30,950 bases of DNA, taken from IMG/VR virus record IMGVR_UViG_3300009515_000019, positions 1 through 30,950 of that record. One strand, 5' to 3'. The position numbers were made by a program, and so were the translations under genes. Shown piece after piece: positions 10,078-30,603 of this stretch. Origin of the DNA: a virus. Below the pieces are notes generated by a model. The model had not been told where the DNA came from and ran no database searches. It saw nothing but the letters and a program-made list of their open reading frames with translations. Position 1 is the stretch's first letter. Every line of letters begins with the position of its first letter.

Positions 10078-10386
10078 ATGGCCCTTTACGTTAAATTAAT
10101 TCAACAGGCCGAAGCGACCGGGCAACCTGCCCGTCCTGCCAAAATTCGCGGCATTCGGCGTGAAGTAAAATCGCGCATCAGTGCGCAGGCTGAAATTGTG
10201 GGTTGGCCTACAGAGGCAAACGTTAAAGCTTTAAGTGCGGGTGGGAAGCCTCTTAAATTTGCTATCGCAGGTCATGCTATTGAGCTTTATGAGCATGGCA
10301 GGTTTAGGGCGAACGAAATGATTAACCGATCTTTACCTTATGTAGTGGCTTACGTTCCCGAACTCGATTTGGAGTGGCCGTATTAA
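10078..10386 (+). CDS. Hypothetical protein (102 aa)
   Basis: ATG 10078 (MALYVKLIQQ) is the most sensible start, although its ribosome site is weak. The product is basic in its first half (PARPAKIRGIRREVKSR) and mixed after that, with no membrane segment and no known motif. It lies between the coiled-coil membrane protein and the large repeat-bearing structural protein, 10 bases after the former and overlapping the latter by one base (TAATG). Confidence 0.65.
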   Translation: MALYVKLIQQAEATGQPARPAKIRGIRREVKSRISAQAEIVGWPTEANVKALSAGGKPLKFAIAGHAIELYEHGRFRANEMINRSLPYVVAYVPELDLEWPY

Positions 10387-12575
10387 TGGGCGTTGTGGTC
10401 TCTCCTTTTCGCACGCAAATTTCTGACTGTGAAACAACAACAGGATGGAGTGGCGGCGGCGTTTTGAATGACTCTTTTCAGTTGCAAGGTACAAACTGTT
10501 TGGGGGAAAAGGTAAGCCAAACTACCAGTTCCGAGCATTTATTTACCTTCGCATCCAACCAAGATATGACGGATAAATTTGTAGTCATGCCCATGTCAGT
10601 CACAGGTGCCGCTGATACAAAAGTGAATGGCGGTTATAGGATAATCTTAATTGATGGTGCTGGGGATAAAGGTACATGGTACGTGGGCGGAATAGACACC
10701 ACGCGTGAGCGTTGGACGTATTTTACCGTTGCTCCTTCGACTGCGCCAACATTTATCAATGGTTCAGCAAATAATGATTTAGGCGTTTCGAGTATAACCC
10801 GCTCAGGAACGACAGCAACATTAACCACTTCTTCGGCACATGGCTTGGCGACAAATGACTTTGTGATTGTTGTCAATGCGGATCAGGAAGAATACAACGG
10901 GCATTTTCAGATTACTGTTACTGGCACGACAACTTTTACCTATGTTATGTCGGCTGATCCTGGTGCGTCCGCGACTGGTTCGCCTGAGGCTCGACAAGGG
11001 ATTAACCAAGCGGATATAGATCAAGTCGGTGTGCAGGGTAAAGTTACAACTAAAGCGGTTGGTAATACACCTAATTTTTTCTGGGACATTTGTTGGTTTG
11101 GTGATGGGCTACAAGTTACTAGCACCACCGATTCAGTTACGCTTACACGGTCAGGTTCAACTGTTACGGTTGCTTCTACTGCGCATGGTTTGGCTGTGGG
11201 TGATAGGGTCAGGATTGCGGGTGCAAATGAGACAGAATATAACGGTGACCATACGATAACTGCTGTACTTACCAACAGTTATGATTATGAAATAGTTGGC
11301 ACGCCTTCGACTCCGGCAACTGGAACGATTACCTCCCGCGTACACGTAACATGGGATCACATTGCGGCGGAAGACGACGCTGGGTTTTGGGGCTTGTGCG
11401 TAAAGACTAACGGTAGTTATATTTTGCAAGGCCGGTTCGTGTTGGGTTCGCTGGGTTCAGCCGCTGATTTGTTGTTTGTGGACAGTAACTTTATCGCAAT
11501 ATTCAGGGAGAACGAGTTTCTACCACCTGACAAAAATAACATTCTGGGTTTCAAGCACGCTAGCGGTGATTTAATCGATATTGAAACGGAGGACTCAGTT
11601 ATTTCGGCGTTTAATACTCGATGGGGTTTTGACGCTGCGTTCGCCACGTCGAATTTTCCGCCAAGCAGTGTGTTGATGGGTGGTATGACTTTCGACGGGT
11701 TGAATAGTTTTGCTGGAGGAAGCGATTCAAACTATACCTATACCAACATTAAATTTAATAGGTATGCTGCTATTTTGCCCGAAGGGGCGACTTATGACGT
11801 AGTCAGTTTAAAGAACGCTGACGCTGATTCACTTGGTATGTTCATAACGTCTGATGTTGTTGATAGTCAGCTTACCAATTTTACTTTTAGTAACGGTGGC
11901 CTTTACCATGTTTCCTTTTTGTATGAGGTAGATTCTTTTGATTTTGATAACTGGACATTTGATGATACTGCGGTAGATGTGCTGTACCTTGCGGGGGTTC
12001 CCGCTCCGGCTACTGTCACCAGTATTACGCGCAGTGGTAGTACCGCCACAGTTACAACTTCGGCAGCGCATGGTTTAGCCTCAAATCAGTACGTCGAAAT
12101 TTTAGGAGCGAACGAGACTGATTATAATGGTGACTTTCAGATTACGGTTACTGGTGCCAGCACTTTTACTTATACGGTAGCAGGTACTCCCACTACCCCG
12201 GCAACCGGTACGATAACGTGGGAGCAGGCTCTCATCATTAATCAACTCAATGGATCGAACGGTTCAACGGAACTGGGGGTTCCCGGCGGTGCAGTTATCT
12301 TTAAGTCGTCCGTTGTTCATACAGTATCCAATCTTCGTACCGGGGATCGAGTAATTTGGATTAGGGTATCTGATGGCGTAGAATTGGAGAATGTGGTTGA
12401 GACAGGCGGGACTGCAGCTTACGCCTATAACTATGTAAGCGACACTGACGTTTACGTTCAAGTTTTGAGTGGTGACAACCTGCGGAAAAATACCGTCACT
12501 GAAGTCACCCTTGGTAACATTAATGCAGGTTTTCCGGCAGTTCAAGCTGTGGATAATGTATATCTTAATCCTTAA
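10386..12575 (+). CDS. Large structural protein with three FCCH-like repeats
   Basis: The protein has 729 residues from ATG 10386 (MGVVVSPFRT); GTG 10374 in frame is an alternative. It is beta-rich and Ser/Thr/Gly-rich. Three related modules of about 70 residues lie near residues 134-202, 246-318 and 542-616. Each follows the plan ITRSG..ATVTT..HGL..ND.V.I.GA.ETEYNG.F.ITV....TFTY.V.GTP.TPATGTIT. InterPro labels such modules in phage tail proteins as FCCH-like (named from ubiquitin-activating E1). The rest resembles a beta-structured appendage with no catalytic motif. It ends in VYLNP, as does the next gene. A tail appendage or fibre role is inferred. Confidence 0.8.
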   Translation: MGVVVSPFRTQISDCETTTGWSGGGVLNDSFQLQGTNCLGEKVSQTTSSEHLFTFASNQDMTDKFVVMPMSVTGAADTKVNGGYRIILIDGAGDKGTWYVGGIDTTRERWTYFTVAPSTAPTFINGSANNDLGVSSITRSGTTATLTTSSAHGLATNDFVIVVNADQEEYNGHFQITVTGTTTFTYVMSADPGASATGSPEARQGINQADIDQVGVQGKVTTKAVGNTPNFFWDICWFGDGLQVTSTTDSVTLTRSGSTVTVASTAHGLAVGDRVRIAGANETEYNGDHTITAVLTNSYDYEIVGTPSTPATGTITSRVHVTWDHIAAEDDAGFWGLCVKTNGSYILQGRFVLGSLGSAADLLFVDSNFIAIFRENEFLPPDKNNILGFKHASGDLIDIETEDSVISAFNTRWGFDAAFATSNFPPSSVLMGGMTFDGLNSFAGGSDSNYTYTNIKFNRYAAILPEGATYDVVSLKNADADSLGMFITSDVVDSQLTNFTFSNGGLYHVSFLYEVDSFDFDNWTFDDTAVDVLYLAGVPAPATVTSITRSGSTATVTTSAAHGLASNQYVEILGANETDYNGDFQITVTGASTFTYTVAGTPTTPATGTITWEQALIINQLNGSNGSTELGVPGGAVIFKSSVVHTVSNLRTGDRVIWIRVSDGVELENVVETGGTAAYAYNYVSDTDVYVQVLSGDNLRKNTVTEVTLGNINAGFPAVQAVDNVYLNP

Positions 12576-18729: not shown

Positions 18730-19317
18730 ATGGGCCTTGAAGACATTGAAAGCCCCGGAAAATATCTTGATGATCTGGACTCGGCGAATCCGGTAGGCGC
18801 GACAGACACATTAAATGAAACGGATAACCACCTCCGGGGCATTAAAAATGTTCTGAAGCTGACCTTCCCGAATATCACCGGGCCAATCACTTCAACACAA
18901 ACAGAGCTTAATTTGCTCACCGGTAAAACTTCGCTGAACTTTATATTCAAAGATCAAGATGACACTATGTCTGGGATTCTGACCTTTGATAAAACGTACA
19001 ACGAGAAGGTAGGTGCGTCCCTCGGGACAGGCGGCGCGATCGCGGTAGACACCAGTTTAGCTTCGTTCTTTTATACGGGTACGTTGCTGACCGATCCTAC
19101 TTTTACTTTCACTAATCCGCCAGCTTCAGGGCGTGGACGCACAATTACGATCGAGCTAAATGACGCAGCCGCGGTTACAGTTACGTGGCCTGGTACGGTA
19201 GTTTGGCCTAACGGAGTGGAGCCTTCGTGGAGTAATGGTAAGGATATTGTTAGCTTTACTACGCGTGATGGCGGGGCAACCTGGCTTGGTTTCTTTGGCG
19301 GGAGGGCTTTCTCCTAA
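18730..19317 (+). CDS. Second fibre protein with shared N-terminal adaptor
   Basis: The protein has 195 residues; ATG 18730 has GGGAG about 6 bases upstream. Residues 9-66 (YLDDLDSANPVG, DNHLRGIKNVLKLTFPN, TSTQTELNLLTGKTS) align with residues 8-62 of the 609-residue spike, so both presumably dock at the same site. The remaining part (about 75-195) is a compact beta domain (FKDQDDTMSGILTF, FTFTNPPASGRGRTITIEL, VTVTWPGTVVWPNG, DIVSFTTRDGGATWLGFFGGRAFS), of the kind seen at fibre ends. It is much shorter than the first fibre. The stop overlaps the next start (TAATG). Confidence 0.82.
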   Translation: MGLEDIESPGKYLDDLDSANPVGATDTLNETDNHLRGIKNVLKLTFPNITGPITSTQTELNLLTGKTSLNFIFKDQDDTMSGILTFDKTYNEKVGASLGTGGAIAVDTSLASFFYTGTLLTDPTFTFTNPPASGRGRTITIELNDAAAVTVTWPGTVVWPNGVEPSWSNGKDIVSFTTRDGGATWLGFFGGRAFS

Positions 19318-20327
19318 TGCCTATGGGGATTGGCAGAGCTGTCATTGAACAGCATACTCGGGATTTGTTATCATTTACCAAGAATGATACGTTTACCTAT
19401 ACCTTTGCCAGCTTCGTGTGGGGAGTGTCTGTTGGGTGGGGACAGGATGGTAAGAATGTAGGTTGCTGGAATACTCCGGGGGGAGCGGTACAGTTAGCTT
19501 ATTCTCTTAATGGGGGTAAAACTTTTGCTGCTTCGGCAGAAAGTTTTGGTAATAGTCAATTTAAAGGTGGTTACAACCCCGATAACGGAGTATTTGTTTC
19601 CGCGCCTGCTGGTGTTAATTTTTGGAAAAGTAACGATCTTTCCGCAAATCCTTGGACGGATATGGGGCGGCCTGCCGGGGCTGACGAGGCCATTTATAAG
19701 GTTGTTTACGACAACGGTATCTGGCTTGCTGTAGGCGCAAGTGATGGAACACGAGGTATAATTCTTCGCAGTACTGAAGCCGATCCTTCTACTTGGACTG
19801 AGATCAATACCCCTACTGCGATGAATACGACTTACAGGGGTGTAGCATATAACCCGGCTGTTAGCAAGTGGATGATTGTCACAAGCTTTGCTAACAATAA
19901 TATCGCATATTCTAGCGATAACGGTCTAACTTGGACTCAGCATACTATTTCAACGGGTGAGCTTTTGTGGGATGTTATAGCGCTGGATGGTAAGTTTTAT
20001 GTAGTAGGAGAAAATGGGTTTATTGCAACTTTGGAAAACCCAGGAGTTACTAGTAGTTGGACACGTATTGAACCTTCTGGTTACAGCACTATTGCTTTCC
20101 GTTGTATTGTTTACTGTAATGGTTTATTAATTGTTGCAGGGGAGCATCTTAATAATTATCCTGTAGTACTTGCCTCTTGGGATTTGGGAACTACATGGGA
20201 GCGTGTTGGCGCTCTTTCTGAACCTTGGGCGACTAATGAATCGCTTTATGGAGCCGGCACTGATGGACGTCGGATTTTCTTAGTTGGCGGATCAAGCGCA
20301 AACCTTAGGTGCTACCAAAATGGCTGA
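19317..20327 (+). CDS. Beta-propeller (BNR-like) tail protein
   Basis: The protein has 336 residues from ATG 19317, which overlaps the previous TAA. The sequence is a series of similar blades of 40-50 residues. Examples are VVYDNGIWLAVGASDGTRGIILRST..PSTWTEI, VAYNPAVSKWMIVTSF..NIAYSSDNGLTWTQH, VIALDGKFYVVGENGFIATL..SSWTRIEP and IVYCNGLLIVAGE...VVLASWDLGTTWERV. The S.DNG.TW Asp-box-like turns are typical of BNR/sialidase-type propellers. No sialidase catalytic set is visible, so binding to a surface glycan or assembly is more likely than hydrolysis. It has no signal peptide. It sits between a fibre and the tail nozzle, so a virion role is inferred. Confidence 0.78.
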   Translation: MPMGIGRAVIEQHTRDLLSFTKNDTFTYTFASFVWGVSVGWGQDGKNVGCWNTPGGAVQLAYSLNGGKTFAASAESFGNSQFKGGYNPDNGVFVSAPAGVNFWKSNDLSANPWTDMGRPAGADEAIYKVVYDNGIWLAVGASDGTRGIILRSTEADPSTWTEINTPTAMNTTYRGVAYNPAVSKWMIVTSFANNNIAYSSDNGLTWTQHTISTGELLWDVIALDGKFYVVGENGFIATLENPGVTSSWTRIEPSGYSTIAFRCIVYCNGLLIVAGEHLNNYPVVLASWDLGTTWERVGALSEPWATNESLYGAGTDGRRIFLVGGSSANLRCYQNG

Positions 20328-21933
20328 TTTACCTGTCAACAATGTAGGGCGGATCGGGCTATATACCGACAGGAAAGCTCATGAGATTCCTGTCGAGGCT
20401 TGGTCTAGGGCAGATAACATTTTGTTTGAGCCAGATGGTGCCGGTAAAATTACTGGTCATGTAGCAGCAGCGGGCACACCCCTTCATGCTCCACGCTGGA
20501 TTTTTCCGTGGCGGGATAGTGCAGGTTTCAAATGGTTGTATGTGGGTACTGCTCGCATTGGGCAAATTGTGGGCACAGCTCACAGTGACGTTACTCGGTT
20601 TACTACAACGCTTGGGGATGATGATTACCTTACCGGAGCTACTACCCGCTTTAGCGGTACAGTGCTAGGCGATCTCCCGGTGTGGACTTATTCCGGGGAA
20701 GTCGATCCGCCTCAGGCATGGAATACAGCAACGGGCCGCTTTTACGACTTGCCGAATTGGCAAGCGAATACTTACGCGGACTTGATTTGTGTAACCGATC
20801 GGCATCTTGTAGCGATGCGAATTAAGAAGGCAGGGCTTTCTTTTAATCCTCGTATGGTGAAGTGGGGACAACCCGCAGATCCTGGTACCTATCCAAACTC
20901 GTGGGATGAAACTGATCCCACCACAGGGGCCGGGGAAGTTACGCTGGCTGAAACCGAAGGTGAGATTAAGGGTACCCGTTTGCTGGTGAACACTCGTTTG
21001 ATTTATAAATCAGACAGTGTTATCTCCATGCGGTTCGTAGGAGGTCAGAACATTTTTGCGTTTGATACAATCTTTGATAAGTTTGGAGCCTTAGGTCCTG
21101 ACGCTATTGGGGCGTTTGAGCGATCTCATATTGTAGTGTCAGAGGGTGATGTTATCCTCCATAACGGTAACACTTTTGAGTCTGTTATTGATGACAGAAA
21201 TAAAGCCCTTTTGTTTAAAGATTTAAGTGCGCCCAACAAAGATCGGACTCGCGTCAGCGTTCGGGCGGAAAGTAACCAGGTTTGGATTAGCTATGTCAGT
21301 AAATCAAGCGCGGGGGATTTGGATAAAGCGTTGATCTGGGATTACAAGAAGAATACTTGGAGTTTTCGCTTCTTGCAAGAGTTTGCTCATATCGCTACAG
21401 GCTTTGTTGATGTTAGCGGGGTAAGTCGCGTTTATGATCAGGCGCCACAAACTACACGGATATACGACACTGCAAGCGAACAATATGATCTTGCTCAGTC
21501 GGCTACGTTTAATGATCTGCTGGCAGCGGATTTTACAAACACACTGCTTTATAAACTGGATGAAACAAATCAGTTTAACGGTGTTAATATGCTCAGTCGC
21601 TTAGAGCGGCAGGGACTTGCTATCGCTGGTCAAGATCGTTTCGGGGAATGGAAGATTGATCTTACCTCACAGAAATTTATTCGGCGTGTTCACTTTAACA
21701 TGGAAGCGTCGGGGCCTGTCACCATTTATATCGGGGGACAGGATAAGCCTAATGGTCCTGTTAGTTGGGTAGGGCCTTTCGCTTTTGATCCTACCCTCGA
21801 CCAGTGGGTAGAACCGCTTTTAAATACTCGATTTTTTGCTATTCGAATTGAGTCAAATTCCGACATCAGTTGGAAGTTATACAGTTATACGGTTGAGCTA
21901 GAAGTTCTTGGCCGGGCGGTGTACCTTGGTTAA
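20320..21933 (+). CDS. Tail nozzle / stabilisation protein (gp10/gp12-like)
   Basis: The protein has 537 residues from ATG 20320, with AGGTG 8 bases upstream; it overlaps the previous gene by 8 bases. An in-frame TTG at 20284 is less likely. The sequence is beta-rich, beginning LPVNNVGRIGLYTDRKAHEIPVEAWSRADNILFEPDG. It then has repeated WIFPWRD, WLYVGT, LICVTDRHLVAMRI and IYKSDSVISMRFVGG stretches that look like a propeller-like tail hub. Size, beta content and the V.W.DN.....G pattern are typical of podovirus tail-tubular B / nozzle proteins that attach to the adaptor. It ends in LEVLGRAVYLG. Confidence 0.8.
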   Translation: MADLPVNNVGRIGLYTDRKAHEIPVEAWSRADNILFEPDGAGKITGHVAAAGTPLHAPRWIFPWRDSAGFKWLYVGTARIGQIVGTAHSDVTRFTTTLGDDDYLTGATTRFSGTVLGDLPVWTYSGEVDPPQAWNTATGRFYDLPNWQANTYADLICVTDRHLVAMRIKKAGLSFNPRMVKWGQPADPGTYPNSWDETDPTTGAGEVTLAETEGEIKGTRLLVNTRLIYKSDSVISMRFVGGQNIFAFDTIFDKFGALGPDAIGAFERSHIVVSEGDVILHNGNTFESVIDDRNKALLFKDLSAPNKDRTRVSVRAESNQVWISYVSKSSAGDLDKALIWDYKKNTWSFRFLQEFAHIATGFVDVSGVSRVYDQAPQTTRIYDTASEQYDLAQSATFNDLLAADFTNTLLYKLDETNQFNGVNMLSRLERQGLAIAGQDRFGEWKIDLTSQKFIRRVHFNMEASGPVTIYIGGQDKPNGPVSWVGPFAFDPTLDQWVEPLLNTRFFAIRIESNSDISWKLYSYTVELEVLGRAVYLG

Positions 21934-22357
21934 TTTTGTTCGAGGTACGGTTCCTGATAGACCGGAAGATGTTCCGCTTTATTTACAGGAAGTTACGCGG
22001 AGACTTGAGGAAGTTTTAAACTTCGAGCCGATTATTGTTACTGTTGAGAATGCAAGTATGGTAAACTCGTGGGTGAATTTTGACACTACACGTGAGGCGC
22101 GTTACTGGCTTGATCAGGAAGGTGTTGTTCATCTTAGTGGGATGCTCTCAACTGGTACGGTGGGGCTCACCGCTTTTACGCTTCCAGTAGGTTATCGGCC
22201 TGACTTTGTAGATGCGACAAATGATCGCTTAAACTTTGCAGTAAGCAGCAATAGCGCCTTTGGTGTATTGCAGGTTTTAAACACTGGGGCTGTTATTCCA
22301 GCGGTTGGAAGTAATGTATTTTTTGCTCTGGACGGAATAACATTCAAGGCGGCTTGA
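21926..22357 (+). CDS. Small tail protein (143 aa)
   Basis: The start is probably TTG 21926, overlapping the nozzle gene end with GGCGG 6 bases upstream; TTG 21908 is an alternative. The N-terminal part is helical (DVPLYLQEVTRRLEEVLNFEP), followed by a beta-sandwich-like domain with ARYWLDQEGVVHLSGMLSTG and FTLPVGYRPDFV. The LP.GYRP turn is common in small phage tail tip or fibre-base proteins. It has no catalytic motif. Its TGA stop lies inside the TTGACA box of the next gene's promoter. Confidence 0.72.
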   Translation: MVNFVRGTVPDRPEDVPLYLQEVTRRLEEVLNFEPIIVTVENASMVNSWVNFDTTREARYWLDQEGVVHLSGMLSTGTVGLTAFTLPVGYRPDFVDATNDRLNFAVSSNSAFGVLQVLNTGAVIPAVGSNVFFALDGITFKAA

Positions 22358-22382
22358 CAGCAGCTTTAGATTGTGGTATAAA
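22354..22382 (+). promoter_or_regulatory. Near-consensus sigma70 promoter for the SET gene
   Basis: A perfect TTGACA (22354-22359) lies exactly 17 bases before TATAAA (22377-22382), and a TGG immediately before the -10 gives an extended element. It is the best host-type promoter in the window. The predicted start falls near 22389, inside inverted-repeat copy C, so that repeat is well placed to act as an operator. Confidence 0.75.
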
Positions 22383-22384
22383 GA

Positions 22385-22417
22385 ATTATTGTATCTTGGA
22401 ATCAAATATGCAATCAT
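22385..22417. repeat. 33-bp inverted repeat, copy C
   Basis: The arms ATTATTGTATCTT (22385-22397) and AATATGCAATCAT (22405-22417) flank GGAATCA. This copy is in the opposite orientation to copies A and B: its reverse complement matches copy B at nearly every arm position. It covers the predicted transcription start, the GGA of the ribosome site and the ATG (22408) of the SET gene. Confidence 0.87.
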
Positions 22418-23247
22418 TAGCGGCAAGGGTTCGGGAACTTCTCCCGGCAGTAGAGGCCAAGATGCTGAAGATGGAGCAGGCAGAATGTCCTGTCTTTCAT
22501 CGGTTTGGCCCAGGGATTTATATCCGTGAATTACATATGCGGGCAGGGACGTTTGCTATTGGGCACTACCAGCGCGAGCGGCATGTAAACATCATGCTGG
22601 CGGGGCGAGTCATGATGCTGAACGAAGATGGTAAGGCGGTTGAGCACAGGGCGCCGTTGTTTTACGTTGGGGAACCTGGCCGTAAAGTTGGGTATGTGCT
22701 TGAGGATATGGTGTGGCAGAATGTCTACGCCACTGAAGAAACGGACATTGAGAAATTGGAGGAACGGTTTCTTGAAAAAAGTGATGTCTTTCTGGAAGAA
22801 GTACAGGGCGTCGACAAACTGTTTGCCGCCCGAGACCGTGAAGATTATGAGGCGTTCCTCAAGGAGTGGGGTTTGTCTGCGGAGTATATCAGGCAGGTTT
22901 CAGAAGATGATAGCGATGCTATCGAGCTGCCAAATGGCACTTACAAGTTTCAGGTGGGGAACTCCCCCATCGAAGGTAAGGGCTTATTTGCGACAGCTGA
23001 CATTGAGCAGGGAGAAGATATAGCTCCGGCTCGAATTGAAGGTAAGCGGACATTAGCAGGCCGCTATACAAATCATGCTAAGGAACCGAATGCAGTAATG
23101 GTTTCACTCTATGGTGTTGATGGCGACAAGTCTATGGTCATCTTAAGAGCCATTAAACCAATTAAAGGTCGGCGTGGTGGTCAGCAAGGCGAAGAGATCA
23201 CTGTGGATTACCGGCAGGTGTTACAGCTTAATATGGGTGAAACATGA
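22408..23247 (+). CDS. Cupin + SET domain protein (putative methyltransferase)
   Basis: The protein has 279 residues from ATG 22408, in the right arm of repeat C. A TTG at 22354 in frame is rejected because it lies in the promoter. Residues about 34-110 form a cupin-like beta-barrel (GIYIRELHMRAGTFAIGH, RHVNIMLAGRV, APLFYVGEPGRKVGYVLE) with H53 and H59 as possible metal ligands. Residues about 175-272 carry SET landmarks: GKGLFATADIEQGEDI, RYTNHAKEPNAVM (219-231), ILRAIKPI and GEEITVDYRQ with the catalytic-type Tyr268. SET domains transfer methyl groups from S-adenosylmethionine to protein Lys. The substrate is unknown; host or virion proteins are possible. It has its own promoter within the tail/internal-protein block. 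Confidence 0.82.
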   Translation: MQSLAARVRELLPAVEAKMLKMEQAECPVFHRFGPGIYIRELHMRAGTFAIGHYQRERHVNIMLAGRVMMLNEDGKAVEHRAPLFYVGEPGRKVGYVLEDMVWQNVYATEETDIEKLEERFLEKSDVFLEEVQGVDKLFAARDREDYEAFLKEWGLSAEYIRQVSEDDSDAIELPNGTYKFQVGNSPIEGKGLFATADIEQGEDIAPARIEGKRTLAGRYTNHAKEPNAVMVSLYGVDGDKSMVILRAIKPIKGRRGGQQGEEITVDYRQVLQLNMGET

Positions 23248-24146
23248 CAGGTGTAGCCACAGCAATAGTAGTTGGATCAGCGATTACAGCTGATTCAAAC
23301 CAAGACGCGGCTGAAGCGGCTTCCGAAGCGCGGCCTCAGTTTCCAACGATTATAGAGCCGGGCTTACAGCGGCAACTCAATCGAGTTAGCGGTACGGGCC
23401 GTGATGTTTTTCGGCAGAACCGTACGGCTGGTTTTACCCCCTTTCAAACTCAGGCTTTTGACCAGACTGGTCAGGTGGTTACAAACCTCGATAATCAGGC
23501 AGCACAGGCGGCTGGCGGTTTCGGTATGTTTACCGATCCAAACTCAATCGGAGCCAATCCTTTTTTGGAGTCGGCGATTCAAGCAATGCGGGAATCAGCG
23601 AATCGCGACTTTCAACGGAACCAAGTACCTGCAATTCGCAATAATGCTGTGGCAGGTGGGGGGCTGGGGGGCTCACGTCAGGGTATTGCTGAAGGGCTTG
23701 CCATGAGTGATCTCAACCAAGATTTGATAAATCGTGAGTCAACGTTGCGGTCAAACCAGGTTAATGTTGACACGAACAATATGCTCAATGCGTTGATCAA
23801 TCAGGGTCAAATTCTCAGTGGACAAACGCGAGGTACGGATTTACTTCAGCGGACCGGGGCATTGCAGCAAGATCAGCGGCAACGGGAAATCCAAGGCTCA
23901 ATGGATCGGTTCAACGAAGAGCAAGACTTGCAGTTCCAGCGAGATCAGGAACTGTTGCGTATCCTCATGGGGGCGCCGGCAAGTGTCCAGCCGATTCCGA
24001 ATCAGAGCAACCCACTTGTAGGTGGGCTCGGCGCCGGCCTTACCGTGTCGCAGTTGTTCCCGCAAACGCAACCAGCAACAACGGCAGCAACAGGAACTCC
24101 AGGTTTCAACCCGGCGTCCACTAATCCTCAGTTTATATTTGGGTGA
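23244..24146 (+). CDS. Internal virion / DNA ejection protein (300 aa)
   Basis: ATG 23244 overlaps the SET stop (ATGA). The product is Gln/Asn/Ala-rich and mostly helical. It begins with a small-residue segment (TGVATAIVVGSAITADSNQDAAEAASEA). A characteristic middle part follows, NPFLESAIQAMRESANRDFQRNQ, then a Gly hinge AVAGGGLGGSRQGIAEG. The C-terminus is disordered and Thr/Pro-rich. Proteins of this make-up next to a giant internal protein are ejected with the DNA in podoviruses (compare P22 gp7/gp20/gp16 in position and composition). The family assignment comes from pattern memory. Confidence 0.75.
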   Translation: MTGVATAIVVGSAITADSNQDAAEAASEARPQFPTIIEPGLQRQLNRVSGTGRDVFRQNRTAGFTPFQTQAFDQTGQVVTNLDNQAAQAAGGFGMFTDPNSIGANPFLESAIQAMRESANRDFQRNQVPAIRNNAVAGGGLGGSRQGIAEGLAMSDLNQDLINRESTLRSNQVNVDTNNMLNALINQGQILSGQTRGTDLLQRTGALQQDQRQREIQGSMDRFNEEQDLQFQRDQELLRILMGAPASVQPIPNQSNPLVGGLGAGLTVSQLFPQTQPATTAATGTPGFNPASTNPQFIFG

Positions 24147-24149
24147 CGT

Positions 24150-24380
24150 ATGGCAGTAGATTTACTACAATCTCTTATGAATCTTAATGCGGGCGTGGCA
24201 GCTCCACAAGGCCAACCTTTGGTACAAGGGGAGAACCCCCTAGTTGGGTTGGCGGGGCTGCCACCCGGCACTATTCCTGCAAGTACACCTGCACCGGATC
24301 AGGCGGCTAACCCCACGCAGCAGGTAACTTCAATGGAAGAACTCATTTTTGGAGGTACACAAAATGCCAGGACTTTTTGA
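24150..24380 (+). CDS. Small Pro/Gln-rich protein (76 aa)
   Basis: ATG 24150 lies 3 bases after the previous stop and has GGGTGA just upstream. The product is low-complexity (LVQGENPLVGLAGLPPGTIPASTPAPDQAANPTQQ) with short helical ends (VDLLQSLMNLN, SMEELIFGG). No family is recognised. It overlaps the next gene by 17 bases and lies among ejection-type proteins, so a minor virion role is possible. Confidence 0.65.
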   Translation: MAVDLLQSLMNLNAGVAAPQGQPLVQGENPLVGLAGLPPGTIPASTPAPDQAANPTQQVTSMEELIFGGTQNARTF

Positions 24381-25203
24381 CGGATTGTCGAATCTCCCAG
24401 TATTCGAAGGGGCGTCCGACGAAGCGACTCGTCGGGCTCTGTTGACTGCGGGGCTTGCCATGATGCAGCCTTTCAATCCGCTTGAAGGGAATGCTTTGAC
24501 GCAGGCCGGCGGTGGTATTCAAGCGGGCCTTGCCTCTCTTGATCAGACGAAGGCGACTGAAGGTGCGATCGCTCAGCAAGATTTTCAGAACATCATCGCT
24601 GGCCGGCAGGTATCTGCTGATGAACAGCGAGCGGATGCAGCAACCTCACAAGCCGATACAGAGGCTCGTCGGGTCGGGGCCGAAGAAGCTCGAATCGCAG
24701 AAGGTGCACGGCAGTTTGATGCCGAGCAAGATCTTCGTGCGGCAAAAATAAACCTGGACGAGGCACAGGCCGAGTGGTTGCGTAGGCGCCACGATGGAAC
24801 TCCGGCAGACTCCAGCAAAATAACAGAGTCGATGATTGATAACTCTTTCATCACCGCTCGAATGGAGAACCTCTACCGTGCCAATCCTGCGAAATATACG
24901 CTGGCTGATGGTTCAAAGAACCTTGCGCTACTTATGGATGACTCCTTCCTTGCGCTCCATCGTGTTACTGGCACGGCAGGCAACGAAAATATCCCCATCA
25001 TCGCACAGGACACACAAGACGCTGCGGCAACGGGTGCGAACATTACTGCGCTCCAAGGGGAAGCGCCAGCGCCTTCTGCGGCACCGGCACCGACAGTGGC
25101 TGATCAATCCAAAGAGCCTACGATCACCACGCAAGCGGAGTTCGATGCGCTTCCGAGCGGCACGGTCTACATTCACAACGGAAAGCGTTTCCGTAAACCG
25201 TAA
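24364..25203 (+). CDS. Internal virion / ejection protein (279 aa)
   Basis: ATG 24364 has GGAGG 8 bases upstream. It overlaps the previous gene by 17 bases. The N-terminus (PGLFDGLSNLPVFEGASDEATRRALLTAGLAMMQP) resembles small ejection proteins. Residues about 70-150 are a long Ala/Glu/Gln/Arg helix, probably a coiled coil. A disordered Ala/Pro linker (GEAPAPSAAPAPTVADQ) leads to a short C-terminal module, EFDALPSGTVYIHNGKRFRKP, that looks like a small SH3-like fold. Position between two other internal proteins supports a role in DNA delivery. Confidence 0.72.
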   Translation: MPGLFDGLSNLPVFEGASDEATRRALLTAGLAMMQPFNPLEGNALTQAGGGIQAGLASLDQTKATEGAIAQQDFQNIIAGRQVSADEQRADAATSQADTEARRVGAEEARIAEGARQFDAEQDLRAAKINLDEAQAEWLRRRHDGTPADSSKITESMIDNSFITARMENLYRANPAKYTLADGSKNLALLMDDSFLALHRVTGTAGNENIPIIAQDTQDAAATGANITALQGEAPAPSAAPAPTVADQSKEPTITTQAEFDALPSGTVYIHNGKRFRKP

Positions 25204-25212
25204 GGTTTCCTG

Positions 25213-28200
25213 ATGTCAATCGAATTTGGCGGAGTACCGCTGGACGAACCCGAAGGTTTCGGAGGCGTGCCAGTTGATGAACCCGAAGGATTCGGTGGTA
25301 TTGCTCTGGATGATCTTGGGGGTGAACCAGTTGAGGCCGAGCCAGAGTTCAAAGACCCACAGATCTTCCGCGGTCGGGGTCGTGGTCCCGCTCCGGTAAG
25401 GTCTCCGGAGGAAATTGAAAAGGCCAAGCGGTACGAGGAAGTTTTTCGTACTGTCGATGGACAGGTCAAGAACTTCGACGAACAGTTTTCCTTTACCGAG
25501 CGGCTCGGGATACGGCTCGGTAAAGGCCATACCCGCCGGACAGCGAACGGACTCCTGCGGGGTTTAACTAACCTACGTGAGGAATTGCGTAAAGTTCAGG
25601 CTAACGATGCAGACGCGATGCGTCGAGCTGGTATCGTAATGCCTCTTGAAGGAGGTGATAACTTTACTGAGTCGACAGAGGCGGCTCGGCTTCGTCGGAT
25701 TGAGGAACTGCAATCCCGTATTGAACAGATGGATAACGAATACCTGTCGGTTTTCAATGCGGTGCATAACCCTCATTACGGAATCGAGAATCCCCGCGAG
25801 GTGCCCGAGCATCCCGCGATGTTGGCTGCGCAAGTAGCGCAACAGGGTGGGGATGACGAATTGGTCAATAAGTTACTGTTTCGTTATTTCCCTGAAATAG
25901 CAGCGGAAACGATGCTTCCGTCTATAACCCAAGCCGGCCCCGCGCAACTGGTAGTTCCAGGTGGCGGGGCCGCAATCACTCGTTTGGCTGGTGGCAGTCA
26001 AGCGTTAGCTCGCGGAGCCTTCGTAGTCGGTACTGGTTCTGTCAGTGGGCATGTTGAGTCTCAAGCAGCATTCGCCGAGTTCCTGCAGGAACAAGGTGTA
26101 GATATGACTGATCTCAATGAGGTAGCCTTTGCTCTTGACGATCCCGAACTTGTTAAGAAGGCACGCGATCGTGCCTCGAAACGGGGGTTATCTGTCGCGA
26201 TGTGGGATATGCTAGGTGCTTATATTGCAGCCAAGCCATCCAAGTTTTTGGTACCTCCCGGACTTAAAAATAAACTTGCCCGACAACTGATGAACGCCGC
26301 TGTGCAGCTTACCGGACAGGTTGGTACCGGGGCAGCTGGTGAGGCGACCGCACAGTTTGCAGCGGGCCAAGACTTTAACGCATTGGAGGTGAAACTTGAA
26401 GCACTCGGCGAAATCCCCACGGCGGTCAGCGAGCCAATTGTATTTCATATCGCTGATAAGATCGGCAAGAAGCCAAGCGACCTTAAGACAGTCGGCGATG
26501 TTCTTGACGCATTTATCAAGAATCCAGAGATTACGGAAGGTGAGGCGCTAGCCGCTCTCAAAGAAGTAGCGGCCCGAGGCATGACCGATGAAGAAGCGAT
26601 TAACATGCTCAAGGCGGTTCCAGGTTTTACATGGTCGGATGACGTTATCAGTGAAATTTTGGATGAAAACGCTTCACGAGTAGCCACGCTTGACGGTTTT
26701 CAAAATGATGAGAATACTCGAACGGTAGTTCAAGATACCTTCTTTGAGAATCAAAGTGGTGGGGTAATGCAGGGTTTAGATATTATTAATAATCAAGAGC
26801 CCCATGACGGTACAGTCTGGTGGACCACCGATCAGCAAGCTAACCGGGATACCTCACTGGGTGTTGAGGTAACTTCAGGGCAAACTGTTCTGCGGTTTAT
26901 TGACGAGTCAATTCAACAATACGAAGCGGAGTTGAATGTTCTGCAGGCGCAACAGGCGCCGCAAACTGCGCTTAATGAACGGATCAATCATATAGAGACA
27001 CTCAGGGAAAGGCGGGCTCGGGTTGCTCGGGATATGCAGGATATGGCACGAGTGAGGCCGCTTGTCCAGCAGTGGTTGCAAGAGATGGTAAATACCTTTA
27101 CGCCCAATCAAGATGTAATGGTGATTGAAGACAATACCATCATGGACTTTAGTCACCCTGGAATGTTAGGGTCAGCCGGCAGTGTGATCGGGCCAACCGG
27201 TCGCCGAACTCAGGTCATTACTTTAAACACGCGAACCTTACTTGATTGGCAAGTAGCTCGCCATACTCATCAGAAAAAAGGACGCGGGCAAACGGCTCTG
27301 GTTACTGTGTTAGCTCACGAGTACGGGCACGCGATCATGCAGAGTTACAAGAACAATCTTCCGCCCGAAGCTATTGCTGCGCTTAAAGCGGAACACCGCA
27401 TGTGGCTTGCTGAGCAGCTTAAGGATTTGGATAAGCCGTTTAGCGAATTTCTTGGAGGGAAGAAAAATCCTTTCGAGGTTAAGACGGTCTTTGGTAATAT
27501 CGATAACGCCATGAACGATCGCCTTGTAGATAATCCAAGTCTACCTTACCATTTATCTCTGGATGAATTTATTGCAGATCGGATGGCGCGTCAGATCTCC
27601 GATCCCAACACGACTACTGTTCCGCCTATGCTTCGAAAGGTTTTACCGAGGATGGAAACCCTCCTTCGAAGGTACTTCCAGCGGAATAAACCGGCGATGG
27701 AGGAAGGCGCGACTTACGAGAAGTTCCTTCAATTTATTAAAGCTCGGGCACAGCGGCAGGCGATGCAGCGGATTGAAGAGTCGTTCACCGAATCGGAGCG
27801 AAATTTACCTACGGATTCTGCTGGCTCAGTTGTTATGTCTATGCTCGCGGATAAGAACCTTAACGTGCCGTCCGAGATTCAAGATGAAGTTTTCAACTCA
27901 CTGGATACTTACAACAAGTTAATGAGGTACGGGCTTTCCTTACTTCAACTCGGTCGAGAGAACAAGCACATTGTAGGGCTCCAGCGTTATATCAAAGCGG
28001 TCCACGAACACTGGGTTACCAAGTCGAACTGGAATGATCAGGCCATGCAAACTATGAATGCGTGGAGGCGGCTCGGGCGCAAGACTTCGGACGAGCTTGG
28101 CCGGTTCCTGCTAGAGCTTACTGTGCGTTCAGATGATTTGCAGCGGGCACTGACCGATGCGGAAATTCAACAACTGATGAAGGAGAAGAAAATTGATTTT

Positions 28201-30603
28201 GGGCAGAAAGGTGAAGAAGCCTTTCAGGTTTACAAACGTATCAAGGGTGATCTGGCGAATGCACTTGAACAGTTGTACGTTATTGAGAAAAACCGAATCA
28301 ATCAAGACTGGGCAGAAGTCGAGACGCAACGCAAGGCCAAGATTAATGAGTTGGATGAACTGTTCACACAACTGAGGAATCGCGACTACTTCCCGCTATC
28401 GCGTTTTGGAGAGTGGGGGATTGCGATGAAGGCGATCGAGCCTGTCGAAATCAATGGGCGGAAGTACAAGACTGGTGAAACCGTTCACATGGAGCTGTAT
28501 GAGAACAAGCGGCAGCGGAATCGAGGTAGCGGCACACTGCGCAGAAAGTACGGGCGGAAGGTACGGGAGACTTTCTTTAAGGTAGATGAAAGCCTTAAGC
28601 CTTTTACTGGACTCCCAATGGCTGTCATGCGACAGCTTAAACAAAACCCTAAGTTGTCATTGACGCCGGAGCAAAAGCAACAGCTTCAAGATATGATCGA
28701 TACGATGAGTCCGACTCAATCGATTGCGAAGCGGATGCTCCAGCGCAAAGGGACAGCGGGGTTTTCAATGGACGCTCAACGCGGCTATGCAAATTATATG
28801 CTGATGATGGGCGGTCACATCTCCAAAATGTTACATGCAGGAGAGATGGATGCGGCGATCGATTCGGTTAAGAAGAGCGCCCGATACCTTGGTGAGCGAG
28901 GACTTGTCAACGACAAGCGACACGAAATCGCTGCTCATCTTGAACGGCACCAAGATTATTTGCTTCGTCCCGAGAATGAATGGGGAGCGCTTAGGGCTCT
29001 CGCATTCCATTGGTTTCTGGGATACAACCCCAAGTCCGCCATTGTCAACCTTACCCAGGTTCCCCTAGTCGCGTATCCATATCTGGCGGCTCGACGCGAG
29101 CTTACCGGAGGTACGCCATTAGCATCTGATGCGGTGGCGATCAAGGAACTGACAGCGGCGATGAAAGATGTGGGGAATTTTTTCAAGCGCGGGATCAACA
29201 AGTATTCTATCGATGAGCAGGCGATGTTAAGTCGCCTGCAATCGGAGGGCATTATCGACGAGTCGTTGGCAACGGAACTGGCGGGGCAGGCTCACGGAGA
29301 TTTGATCTCCACCATGATGCCGAAGGAGACGGCCTTTACGGATAACGTACACTTCCGAGCACAGCAGTTCTTGCGTGGTAGTACCTGGATGTTTCAGGCG
29401 GCTGAGAAATTTAACCGCCGGGTGACTGCATTGGCGACTTACCGGTTAGCTCGCAATAAGGGTATGGATGTGCAGCGGTCTATTGACGAAGCAAGGGAGG
29501 CGCTTCGGGTAACGCAGTTTGAATATGCTCGATGGAACCGGGCAGCTTTTATGCGGGGTAAGGCAGGTGTCTTCTTCGTGTTCATGCAGTATCTACAAAA
29601 CGTCCTGTACTTCGTTACCCGCGATCCAGGGAAGACTCGATATATGCTGATGATGTTCATGGCGGCAGGTCTCCAAGGTCTTCCCGGTGCGGAGGACCTT
29701 ATGGACCTGTTCGACTTTGGGTCGAGGGAGATGAAGAAATGGCTGAAGATCAAGACGGACCCGCGGAGCGATATTCGCGAGGACCTGCGCCGAATGACGA
29801 TGTCGCTTGGGGCGAGCCCCGAGTTAATGATGCACGGGCTGTCAGCGCAATCCTTTGGATTAGGCCTCCCGGCTGTAAACGATATGCTTGGTACGAGTAT
29901 TCCCTCGTTGACTTTCGAAAACAGCATCAGTGCCGGGCGTGTAATTCCCGGTTGGGAAGCCCTGCTAAACCCCAATCGCATGAGCGGTGTGGGCGCCGTG
30001 GAGGGTGCGAAAGACGTACTTGGCGCTGCGATCACTGTACCACTGAATATACTTCGTTGGACGCGCGATCAAGATCCCAGCGAAATCAGGGCGTTTGAGC
30101 GCATGGCCCCTTCAGTCCTTAAAGGGGCGGCCAGAGCGTATCGTATTGCGAATGAGGGCGGCCTCTATGACCGCGGGGGAAGGCTTATCGCTGACTTTGA
30201 TATGTCCGATCCCGAGCATATCGGCGAGCTTATCGGCATGAGCTTGGGTGCTCAGCCGACGCGGGTACAGCGTATTCAAGAAGCTCGTTGGGCCGAGCGC
30301 GAGGCTACCGAGTTCTACTCGCAGCTCCGGCAAAACCTCCTCACCGACTTCTTCTATGCAATGGAAGAGCGTAACCTTGTCGGTGATGTCGAGGCGGTGC
30401 AACGCGCGCGTGACGCAATCACTGATTTTAATCGGGTCGTGCCGAAGGGTCAACAGATAATCAACCTCGGCAGTTCCTATGCAAACTTCAAGAAGCGCCA
30501 AGCACTCGACAAGGCCGGGATTGGGCAGCGGAAACTTGATCTTCCGCTTCAACGCGAGATCAGAGAAACTTTCCCCAGTGCGACAGAGGAGCGCATTCAA
30601 TAA
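25213..30603 (+). CDS. Giant internal virion protein with zinc-protease-like domain
   Basis: The protein has 1796 residues from ATG 25213, with AAGG upstream. It is probably carried in the capsid and ejected into the host. The N-terminus has three tandem 11-residue repeats (FGGVPLDEPEG type, 5-37). A zinc-peptidase motif HEYGH lies at 702-706 (VTVLAHEYGHAIMQSY) with a downstream DEFIAD Glu (E785) as a plausible third ligand, the gluzincin arrangement. Long helical regions follow. The stretch FLGYNPKSAIVNLTQVPLVAYP (about 1268-1289) and the hydrophobic AGVFFVFMQYLQNVLYF segment (about 1452-1468) match what I recall of large polyvalent/internal phage proteins. No polymerase or lytic transglycosylase motif is seen. 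Confidence 0.82.
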   Translation: MSIEFGGVPLDEPEGFGGVPVDEPEGFGGIALDDLGGEPVEAEPEFKDPQIFRGRGRGPAPVRSPEEIEKAKRYEEVFRTVDGQVKNFDEQFSFTERLGIRLGKGHTRRTANGLLRGLTNLREELRKVQANDADAMRRAGIVMPLEGGDNFTESTEAARLRRIEELQSRIEQMDNEYLSVFNAVHNPHYGIENPREVPEHPAMLAAQVAQQGGDDELVNKLLFRYFPEIAAETMLPSITQAGPAQLVVPGGGAAITRLAGGSQALARGAFVVGTGSVSGHVESQAAFAEFLQEQGVDMTDLNEVAFALDDPELVKKARDRASKRGLSVAMWDMLGAYIAAKPSKFLVPPGLKNKLARQLMNAAVQLTGQVGTGAAGEATAQFAAGQDFNALEVKLEALGEIPTAVSEPIVFHIADKIGKKPSDLKTVGDVLDAFIKNPEITEGEALAALKEVAARGMTDEEAINMLKAVPGFTWSDDVISEILDENASRVATLDGFQNDENTRTVVQDTFFENQSGGVMQGLDIINNQEPHDGTVWWTTDQQANRDTSLGVEVTSGQTVLRFIDESIQQYEAELNVLQAQQAPQTALNERINHIETLRERRARVARDMQDMARVRPLVQQWLQEMVNTFTPNQDVMVIEDNTIMDFSHPGMLGSAGSVIGPTGRRTQVITLNTRTLLDWQVARHTHQKKGRGQTALVTVLAHEYGHAIMQSYKNNLPPEAIAALKAEHRMWLAEQLKDLDKPFSEFLGGKKNPFEVKTVFGNIDNAMNDRLVDNPSLPYHLSLDEFIADRMARQISDPNTTTVPPMLRKVLPRMETLLRRYFQRNKPAMEEGATYEKFLQFIKARAQRQAMQRIEESFTESERNLPTDSAGSVVMSMLADKNLNVPSEIQDEVFNSLDTYNKLMRYGLSLLQLGRENKHIVGLQRYIKAVHEHWVTKSNWNDQAMQTMNAWRRLGRKTSDELGRFLLELTVRSDDLQRALTDAEIQQLMKEKKIDFGQKGEEAFQVYKRIKGDLANALEQLYVIEKNRINQDWAEVETQRKAKINELDELFTQLRNRDYFPLSRFGEWGIAMKAIEPVEINGRKYKTGETVHMELYENKRQRNRGSGTLRRKYGRKVRETFFKVDESLKPFTGLPMAVMRQLKQNPKLSLTPEQKQQLQDMIDTMSPTQSIAKRMLQRKGTAGFSMDAQRGYANYMLMMGGHISKMLHAGEMDAAIDSVKKSARYLGERGLVNDKRHEIAAHLERHQDYLLRPENEWGALRALAFHWFLGYNPKSAIVNLTQVPLVAYPYLAARRELTGGTPLASDAVAIKELTAAMKDVGNFFKRGINKYSIDEQAMLSRLQSEGIIDESLATELAGQAHGDLISTMMPKETAFTDNVHFRAQQFLRGSTWMFQAAEKFNRRVTALATYRLARNKGMDVQRSIDEAREALRVTQFEYARWNRAAFMRGKAGVFFVFMQYLQNVLYFVTRDPGKTRYMLMMFMAAGLQGLPGAEDLMDLFDFGSREMKKWLKIKTDPRSDIREDLRRMTMSLGASPELMMHGLSAQSFGLGLPAVNDMLGTSIPSLTFENSISAGRVIPGWEALLNPNRMSGVGAVEGAKDVLGAAITVPLNILRWTRDQDPSEIRAFERMAPSVLKGAARAYRIANEGGLYDRGGRLIADFDMSDPEHIGELIGMSLGAQPTRVQRIQEARWAEREATEFYSQLRQNLLTDFFYAMEERNLVGDVEAVQRARDAITDFNRVVPKGQQIINLGSSYANFKKRQALDKAGIGQRKLDLPLQREIRETFPSATEERIQ
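25225..25323 (+). repeat. Three tandem 33-base repeats in the giant gene
   Basis: Units at 25225-25257, 25258-25290 and 25291-25323 encode FGGVPLDEPEG, FGGVPVDEPEG and FGGIALDDLGG. The first two are nearly identical in protein but differ at many third codon positions, so the repeat is old or kept by selection on the protein. Confidence 0.85.

Follow-up and report, generated by a model that had tools for sequence, protein, structure and literature searches.

A minimal SET domain linked to a cupin barrel in the tail-to-ejection slot of P22-like podophages

In this study we describe a protein from a large group of aquatic podophages in which a cupin barrel is followed by a SET domain, and whose gene keeps a fixed slot between tail-completion and ejection genes across annotated P22-like relatives. 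SET and cupin were found linked in three ways: as cupin-SET proteins, as SET-cupin proteins and as separate overlapping genes. These fused, reversed and split arrangements suggest that protein methylation takes part in particle building or DNA delivery. As our main reading, to which we give a probability of roughly 40%, the cupin-SET protein would be a late virion-assembly protein whose cupin-positioned SET domain methylates lysines of a tail or ejection partner during assembly. The window, by which we mean the whole stretch of DNA that was analysed, corresponds to a virus record that is linear and 30,950 bases long. It is a segment of a P22-like podophage and includes genes for terminase, portal, coat, tail and ejection proteins.

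The cupin-SET protein (P0001; 279 amino acids plus stop) is encoded at 22408..23247 on the plus strand, as are its domains and motifs, the promoter-like site and the genes in P22 order given below, and was defined from its open reading frame together with Pfam, PHROGs and AlphaFold/Foldseek. An earlier note on this DNA had proposed a cupin-like barrel fused to a SET domain, and this proposal is borne out by the SET profile, fold matches, conservation and synteny. A Pfam profile search, which that note had put forward as a check, found the SET domain above the curated cutoff (PF00856, E 8.4e-7; score 29.8 bits, cutoff 22.4 bits). The same cutoff is passed by the SET domains of Pseudoalteromonas phage PH1 and of the loci L283, L344 and L249; the homologue of Rhodoferax phage P26218 scores 16.2 bits and falls below it. 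The AlphaFold model of P0001, based on 18 homologues (pLDDT 86.9, pTM 0.84), shows a barrel at about residues 25-110, helices at 114-166 and a mixed C-terminal domain. Its C-terminal part was matched by Foldseek to MLL1, to vSET 3kma (TM 0.62 by target length) and to other SET structures, so the predicted fold is that of a SET domain, a match that does not show the pseudoknot strand threading itself. Neither outcome that the note had named as refuting, a missing SET profile match or a model lacking the SET fold, was therefore obtained. The N-terminal part matches cupins (oxalate decarboxylase, ectoine synthase and TM1459). No significant Pfam match was obtained for the cupin part; the cupin (RmlC-like) barrel (residues ~25-110, 22480..22737) was called from the Foldseek fold and from homology to the PHROG families phrog_12032 and phrog_24280, annotated as ‘short tail fiber protein’. 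A helical preamble (residues ~143-170, 22834..22917) that belongs to the SET module lies between the two domains and accompanies SET also where the arrangement is permuted or split. The SET core itself (residues ~180-270, 22945..23217) was delimited by profile and fold and carries no SET-I insert. Both domains are covered by phrog_34170 (‘unknown function’; residues 6-273, 1.4e-81, 275 bits). A chance reading frame or chance motif is ruled out by the Pfam, PHROG and fold matches, by dN/dS and by motif conservation. An assembly chimera is excluded as well: both isolated phages and hundreds of contigs carry the fusion, and its reversed form was recovered from more than one metagenome.

Alignment of SET modules placed motif I (GKG, residues 190-192) at 22975..22983, motif III (RYTNH, 219-223) at 23062..23076 and motif IV (GEEITVDY, 261-268, with invariant E263 and Y268) at 23188..23211. 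The core motifs had been described as intact, and indeed both RYTNH..EPN (219-228) and GEEITVDYRQ (261-270) occur in P0001 and align in register with MLL1/KMT2A. Across 153 distinct SET modules, a collection biased to the best-scoring relatives, the SET-superfamily motifs GxG, RxxNH and ELxxDY-type hardly vary: the SAM-site and catalytic residues G192, N222, E263 and Y268 are conserved wherever a letter is aligned, H223 is kept in 152 modules and G190 in 151. R219 has four exceptions, three of them stand-alone SET proteins of cyanophages and a pelagiphage. An RT..G pattern around residues 214-218 is invariant in the phage modules and represents a feature of the phage lineage. Median dN/dS was 0.090 for SET and 0.097 for the cupin in pairs of 80-99% identity (149 distinct cupin-SET proteins examined, a set with the same bias).

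The substrate side of the active site looks different. In characterised SET enzymes the SET-I insert and the YxG motif are parts of the substrate channel, and neither was found here in the form known from SET lysine methyltransferases of the MLL, vSET and SET7/9 type. Only 30 residues separate GxG from NH in the phage module, about 23 fewer than in vSET and 37 fewer than in MLL1, which leaves no SET-I, and IAPARI occupies the position of YxG. Because both elements are absent we place P0001 in no characterised KMT family, and it follows that the phage active site must differ on its substrate side, where the missing elements could come from the helical preamble or a partner protein. It might be possible that the SET domain is no enzyme at all, being a non-catalytic module (perhaps SAM-sensing or purely structural) of a tail or assembly protein. 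The missing SET-I and YxG would fit such a role, as would the short-tail-fiber-type partner and a coupled neighbour protein without lysine. However, the residues for SAM binding and methyl transfer (GxG, RxxNH and the Y of DY) are the most conserved of the module, which structural reuse alone would not demand, and we consider a non-catalytic role unlikely. Judged from sequence, methylation of virion or host proteins by the P0001 SET domain is plausible.

The best-known role of SET enzymes is histone methylation, and several of these enzymes resemble the phage module. The best PDB matches in sequence and fold are the MLL/KMT2 SET domains; these have the SET-I and YxG that are missing from the phage module, which in turn has a phage-specific helical preamble. 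PBCV-1 vSET (A612L), a viral histone H3K27 methyltransferase, is likewise a small viral SET (profile match 4.9e-10, and a fold match), but it is a stand-alone domain from a virus that infects a eukaryote, and its motifs I and III lie about 23 residues further apart. The stand-alone SET proteins of cyanophages and a pelagiphage (phrog_28741) are likewise short, have no SET-I and share RT..G.xNH, with weak similarity; they differ in having neither cupin nor helical preamble. Their genes lie in the baseplate region beside gp25/baseplate genes in P-RSM6 (L113), beside nrdB in P-SSM7 (L114) and not with tail genes in Kolga (L115).

The gene order around the cupin-SET gene follows that of P22. Upstream lie a virion structural protein gene at the gp10 position (phrog_3287; 20284..21933, from PHROGs and order) and a gene for a small tail-related protein of 149 amino acids at the gp26 position (21908..22357, PHROGs). 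Downstream are genes for a gp7-like DNA ejection protein (phrog_7477/4287; 23244..24146, PHROGs), a probable second ejection protein at the gp20 position (24349..25203, assigned by position only, with no significant family match) and, at the gp16 position, a giant ejection-type PLxRFG/DarB-like protein of 1796 amino acids (25213..30603, domain matches), which takes up about one sixth of the record. The placement between tail and ejection proteins that the earlier note had given is thus confirmed on both sides. From the P22 order 4-10-26-14-7-20-16 it follows that the cupin-SET gene sits at the position of gene 14. P26218, PH1 and others show the same series (a gp10-type gene, a small gene, cupin-SET, then a gp7-type DNA ejection gene), and in P26218 the gene after cupin-SET shares its PHROG with P22 gp7. 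P22 gene 14 (phrog_651, DUF2824) likewise lies between genes 26 and 7, but gp14 has no sequence match to cupin-SET, and its model (pLDDT 41.5, no meaningful PDB match) is too poor for a fold comparison. Coupling to the ejection block is tight: the gp7-like gene of the window starts within the cupin-SET stop (ATGA overlap), and in 96% of 139 distinct cupin-SET genes the next start codon lies -16 to +5 bases from the stop.

This coupling brings up the main rival to methylation of a virion partner, namely that the cupin-SET protein is packaged in the virion, leaves it together with the gp7/20/16-like proteins and methylates a host protein as infection begins. The gene lies within the ejection block and is coupled to it. 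The same block encodes the giant PLxRFG/DarB-like protein, of a kind thought to be delivered along with phage DNA, and in L283 an ART-PolyVal-like protein (below cutoff) is encoded directly upstream of the SET gene. However, many podophages have in this slot a cupin-only homologue whose annotation is that of a structural tail protein, which is more in keeping with a role in the particle than with a dispensable effector, and a survey of polyvalent proteins mentions no SET domain; we regard the ejected effector as rather doubtful. The homologues in question, named ‘short tail fiber protein’ or ‘tail fiber adhesin’ (phrog_12032, phrog_24280; PHA00672), have a homologous barrel without SET and come from Vibrio, Shewanella, phiKMV-like and other podophages. 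In Vibrio, Shewanella and Thalassomonas phages they occupy the same slot, and in phiKMV-like and other podophages the cupin-only gene lies between tail tubular or tail genes and internal virion proteins.

If a virion partner is methylated, as our main reading has it, one candidate can be removed. The gp7-like ejection protein (23244..24146) has 20 arginines and no lysine among its 300 amino acids and therefore cannot be the SET substrate in this phage. A lysine-free protein after the cupin was also seen in three other relatives of the set, one of them cupin-only.

The profile of the cupin-SET protein found 503 relatives in viral contigs, of which the best 80 were kept; together with other scans 149 distinct proteins were examined. 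PHROG 34170 has the same full-length cupin plus SET and includes the isolates Rhodoferax phage P26218 and Pseudoalteromonas phage PH1, but the family carries no assigned function or mechanism. The rarity implied by the earlier note does not hold: PHROG 34170 is widespread, and some members from metagenomic phages are already labelled ‘SET domain containing protein’; the label ‘pbcV-1 histone H3-lys 27 methyltransferase structure’ also occurs among individual members. Searches of the open-licence PMC literature turned up no description of a SET domain linked to phage tails or of a cupin-SET link, and the passages found in the P26218 paper name no such feature. What is new, as far as could be checked, is the repeated and permuted linkage, together with the assignment of the slot and the loss of the three-histidine site described below; the family itself was already in the databases. 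Megablast found no close phage DNA relatives of the window, and no defence-system model matched. With respect to a prophage context, 28 pattern matches in genome contigs included five that encode relatives, all of them in metagenome bins, and gave no prophage evidence.

Reversed SET-cupin reading frames are intact in L249 and L255, which are 91% identical and come from different metagenomes, and in L344, which belongs to a different lineage. When L344 and L249 were compared with P0001 by BLAST both domains aligned, with their order swapped. A close relative of L249, L246:2598-3375, has its SET-cupin gene broken by an apparent frameshift. In L283 and L285, from one metagenome, SET and cupin are separate genes with 4-base overlaps, and in L283 the ejection gene comes next, again with a 4-base overlap. 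The ADP-ribosyltransferase-like protein (ART-PolyVal, below cutoff) is encoded directly upstream of the split pair in both (L283:1504-2577, L285:1438-2535). The helical preamble (D..DY..FL.E.G) stays with SET in every arrangement and thereby defines the module. A scan seeded with the SET module only returned 80 loci, comprising 77 cupin-SET, one SET-cupin and two SET alone; both SET-alone loci end at contig edges, and every uncut locus has a cupin. It has to be considered that the SET domain might act on some other late product, for example a host protein of translation or of the envelope, or else a small molecule, with the cupin link reflecting gene order and expression only. Related SET genes do lie outside structural blocks in a cyanophage and a pelagiphage, yet repeated fusion or overlap with one partner, in both orders, is hard to obtain from co-expression alone, which makes this very unlikely in our view.

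The history of the linkage can be followed on the cupin tree, which requires seven gains or losses of SET and whose well-supported branches force at least four changes of the cupin-SET label; an earlier tree gave four changes for all architecture states. With few columns and several long branches in this tree, the exact number is unsure. Some of the changes can be put down to loss from a fused ancestor, but the reversed order cannot. In L293 (L293:3500-4200; also in L294 and L296) a remnant of about 38 residues of the SET preamble lies upstream of a cupin-only gene and looks like a SET deletion. Some relatives have thus apparently lost SET, and the domain is therefore not essential to all such phages.

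The cupin barrels differ between the two groups at three histidines, which are inferred from the cupin fold to bind metal. Histidines 55, 59 and 107 are all kept in 66 of 79 cupin-only proteins (84%) versus 6 of 142 cupin-SET proteins (4%), counts in which the proteins are phylogenetically not independent, and in 3/3 SET-cupin proteins and 1/1 split form. Most phrog_12032/24280 cupins thus retain a site that is mostly lost in cupin-SET. P0001 itself carries Q55, H59 and Y107 and lacks the three-histidine site. At positions 53/55/57/59/107 the main cupin-SET clade mostly has H-Q-x-H-Y, and the PH1 clade has Q-Y-F-H-H and is thus altered differently. The loss in fused cupins fits a barrel that has turned into a scaffold. 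Possibly podophages repeatedly attached a minimal SET to the slot cupin since methylation of virion components serves assembly or DNA delivery, and enzymatic duty moved from the cupin metal site to SET; we hold this evolutionary proposal somewhat doubtful.

How might a virion-assembly methyltransferase of this kind work? By homology the cupin barrel is a tail/ejection-slot protein common to many podophages without SET, and in this lineage it may have become a scaffold by which a minimal SET lysine methyltransferase at the C-terminus is held in place. The overlapping genes imply production together with the ejection protein, and the cupin would then dock at the tail/portal or ejection complex. 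There the SET domain would bind SAM and methylate one or a few partner lysines during assembly, by which packing, stability or release might be tuned. Probable targets are the cupin-SET protein itself, the gp10/portal tail machine or the gp20/gp16-like ejection proteins, and not the gp7-like neighbour. A SET domain tied to one virion-assembly protein in hundreds of environmental podophages, and kept under purifying selection, may point to lysine methylation on the particle or via the ejection apparatus as far as sequence can tell. If true, this would be a protein-methylation step in bacteriophage virion maturation. The isolates P26218 and PH1 make the idea directly testable, and it also suggests a role that can be tested for the ‘short tail fiber’ cupins, of which little is understood, and for the P22 gene 14 slot.

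Upstream of the cupin-SET gene lies the best promoter-like site of the window, TTGACA-N17-TATAAA at 22354..22382, which matches the consensus at 11 of 12 positions and was missed by a tool that requires T as the last -10 base. The promoter of its own that had been ascribed to the gene is therefore a real consensus match; however, about 2.25 matches with two or fewer mismatches are expected by chance in the window, and strong sites (10-12 of 12) were not enriched over shuffles in 149 relatives, so that a conserved promoter is unsupported. Elsewhere in the window, 19317-20327, which lies within the tail genes, encodes a BNR/Asp-box, beta-propeller-like protein (Pfam, below cutoff), and 10374-12575 encodes a protein of 733 amino acids with an E1_FCCH-like stretch and repeated matches to virion-structural PHROGs.
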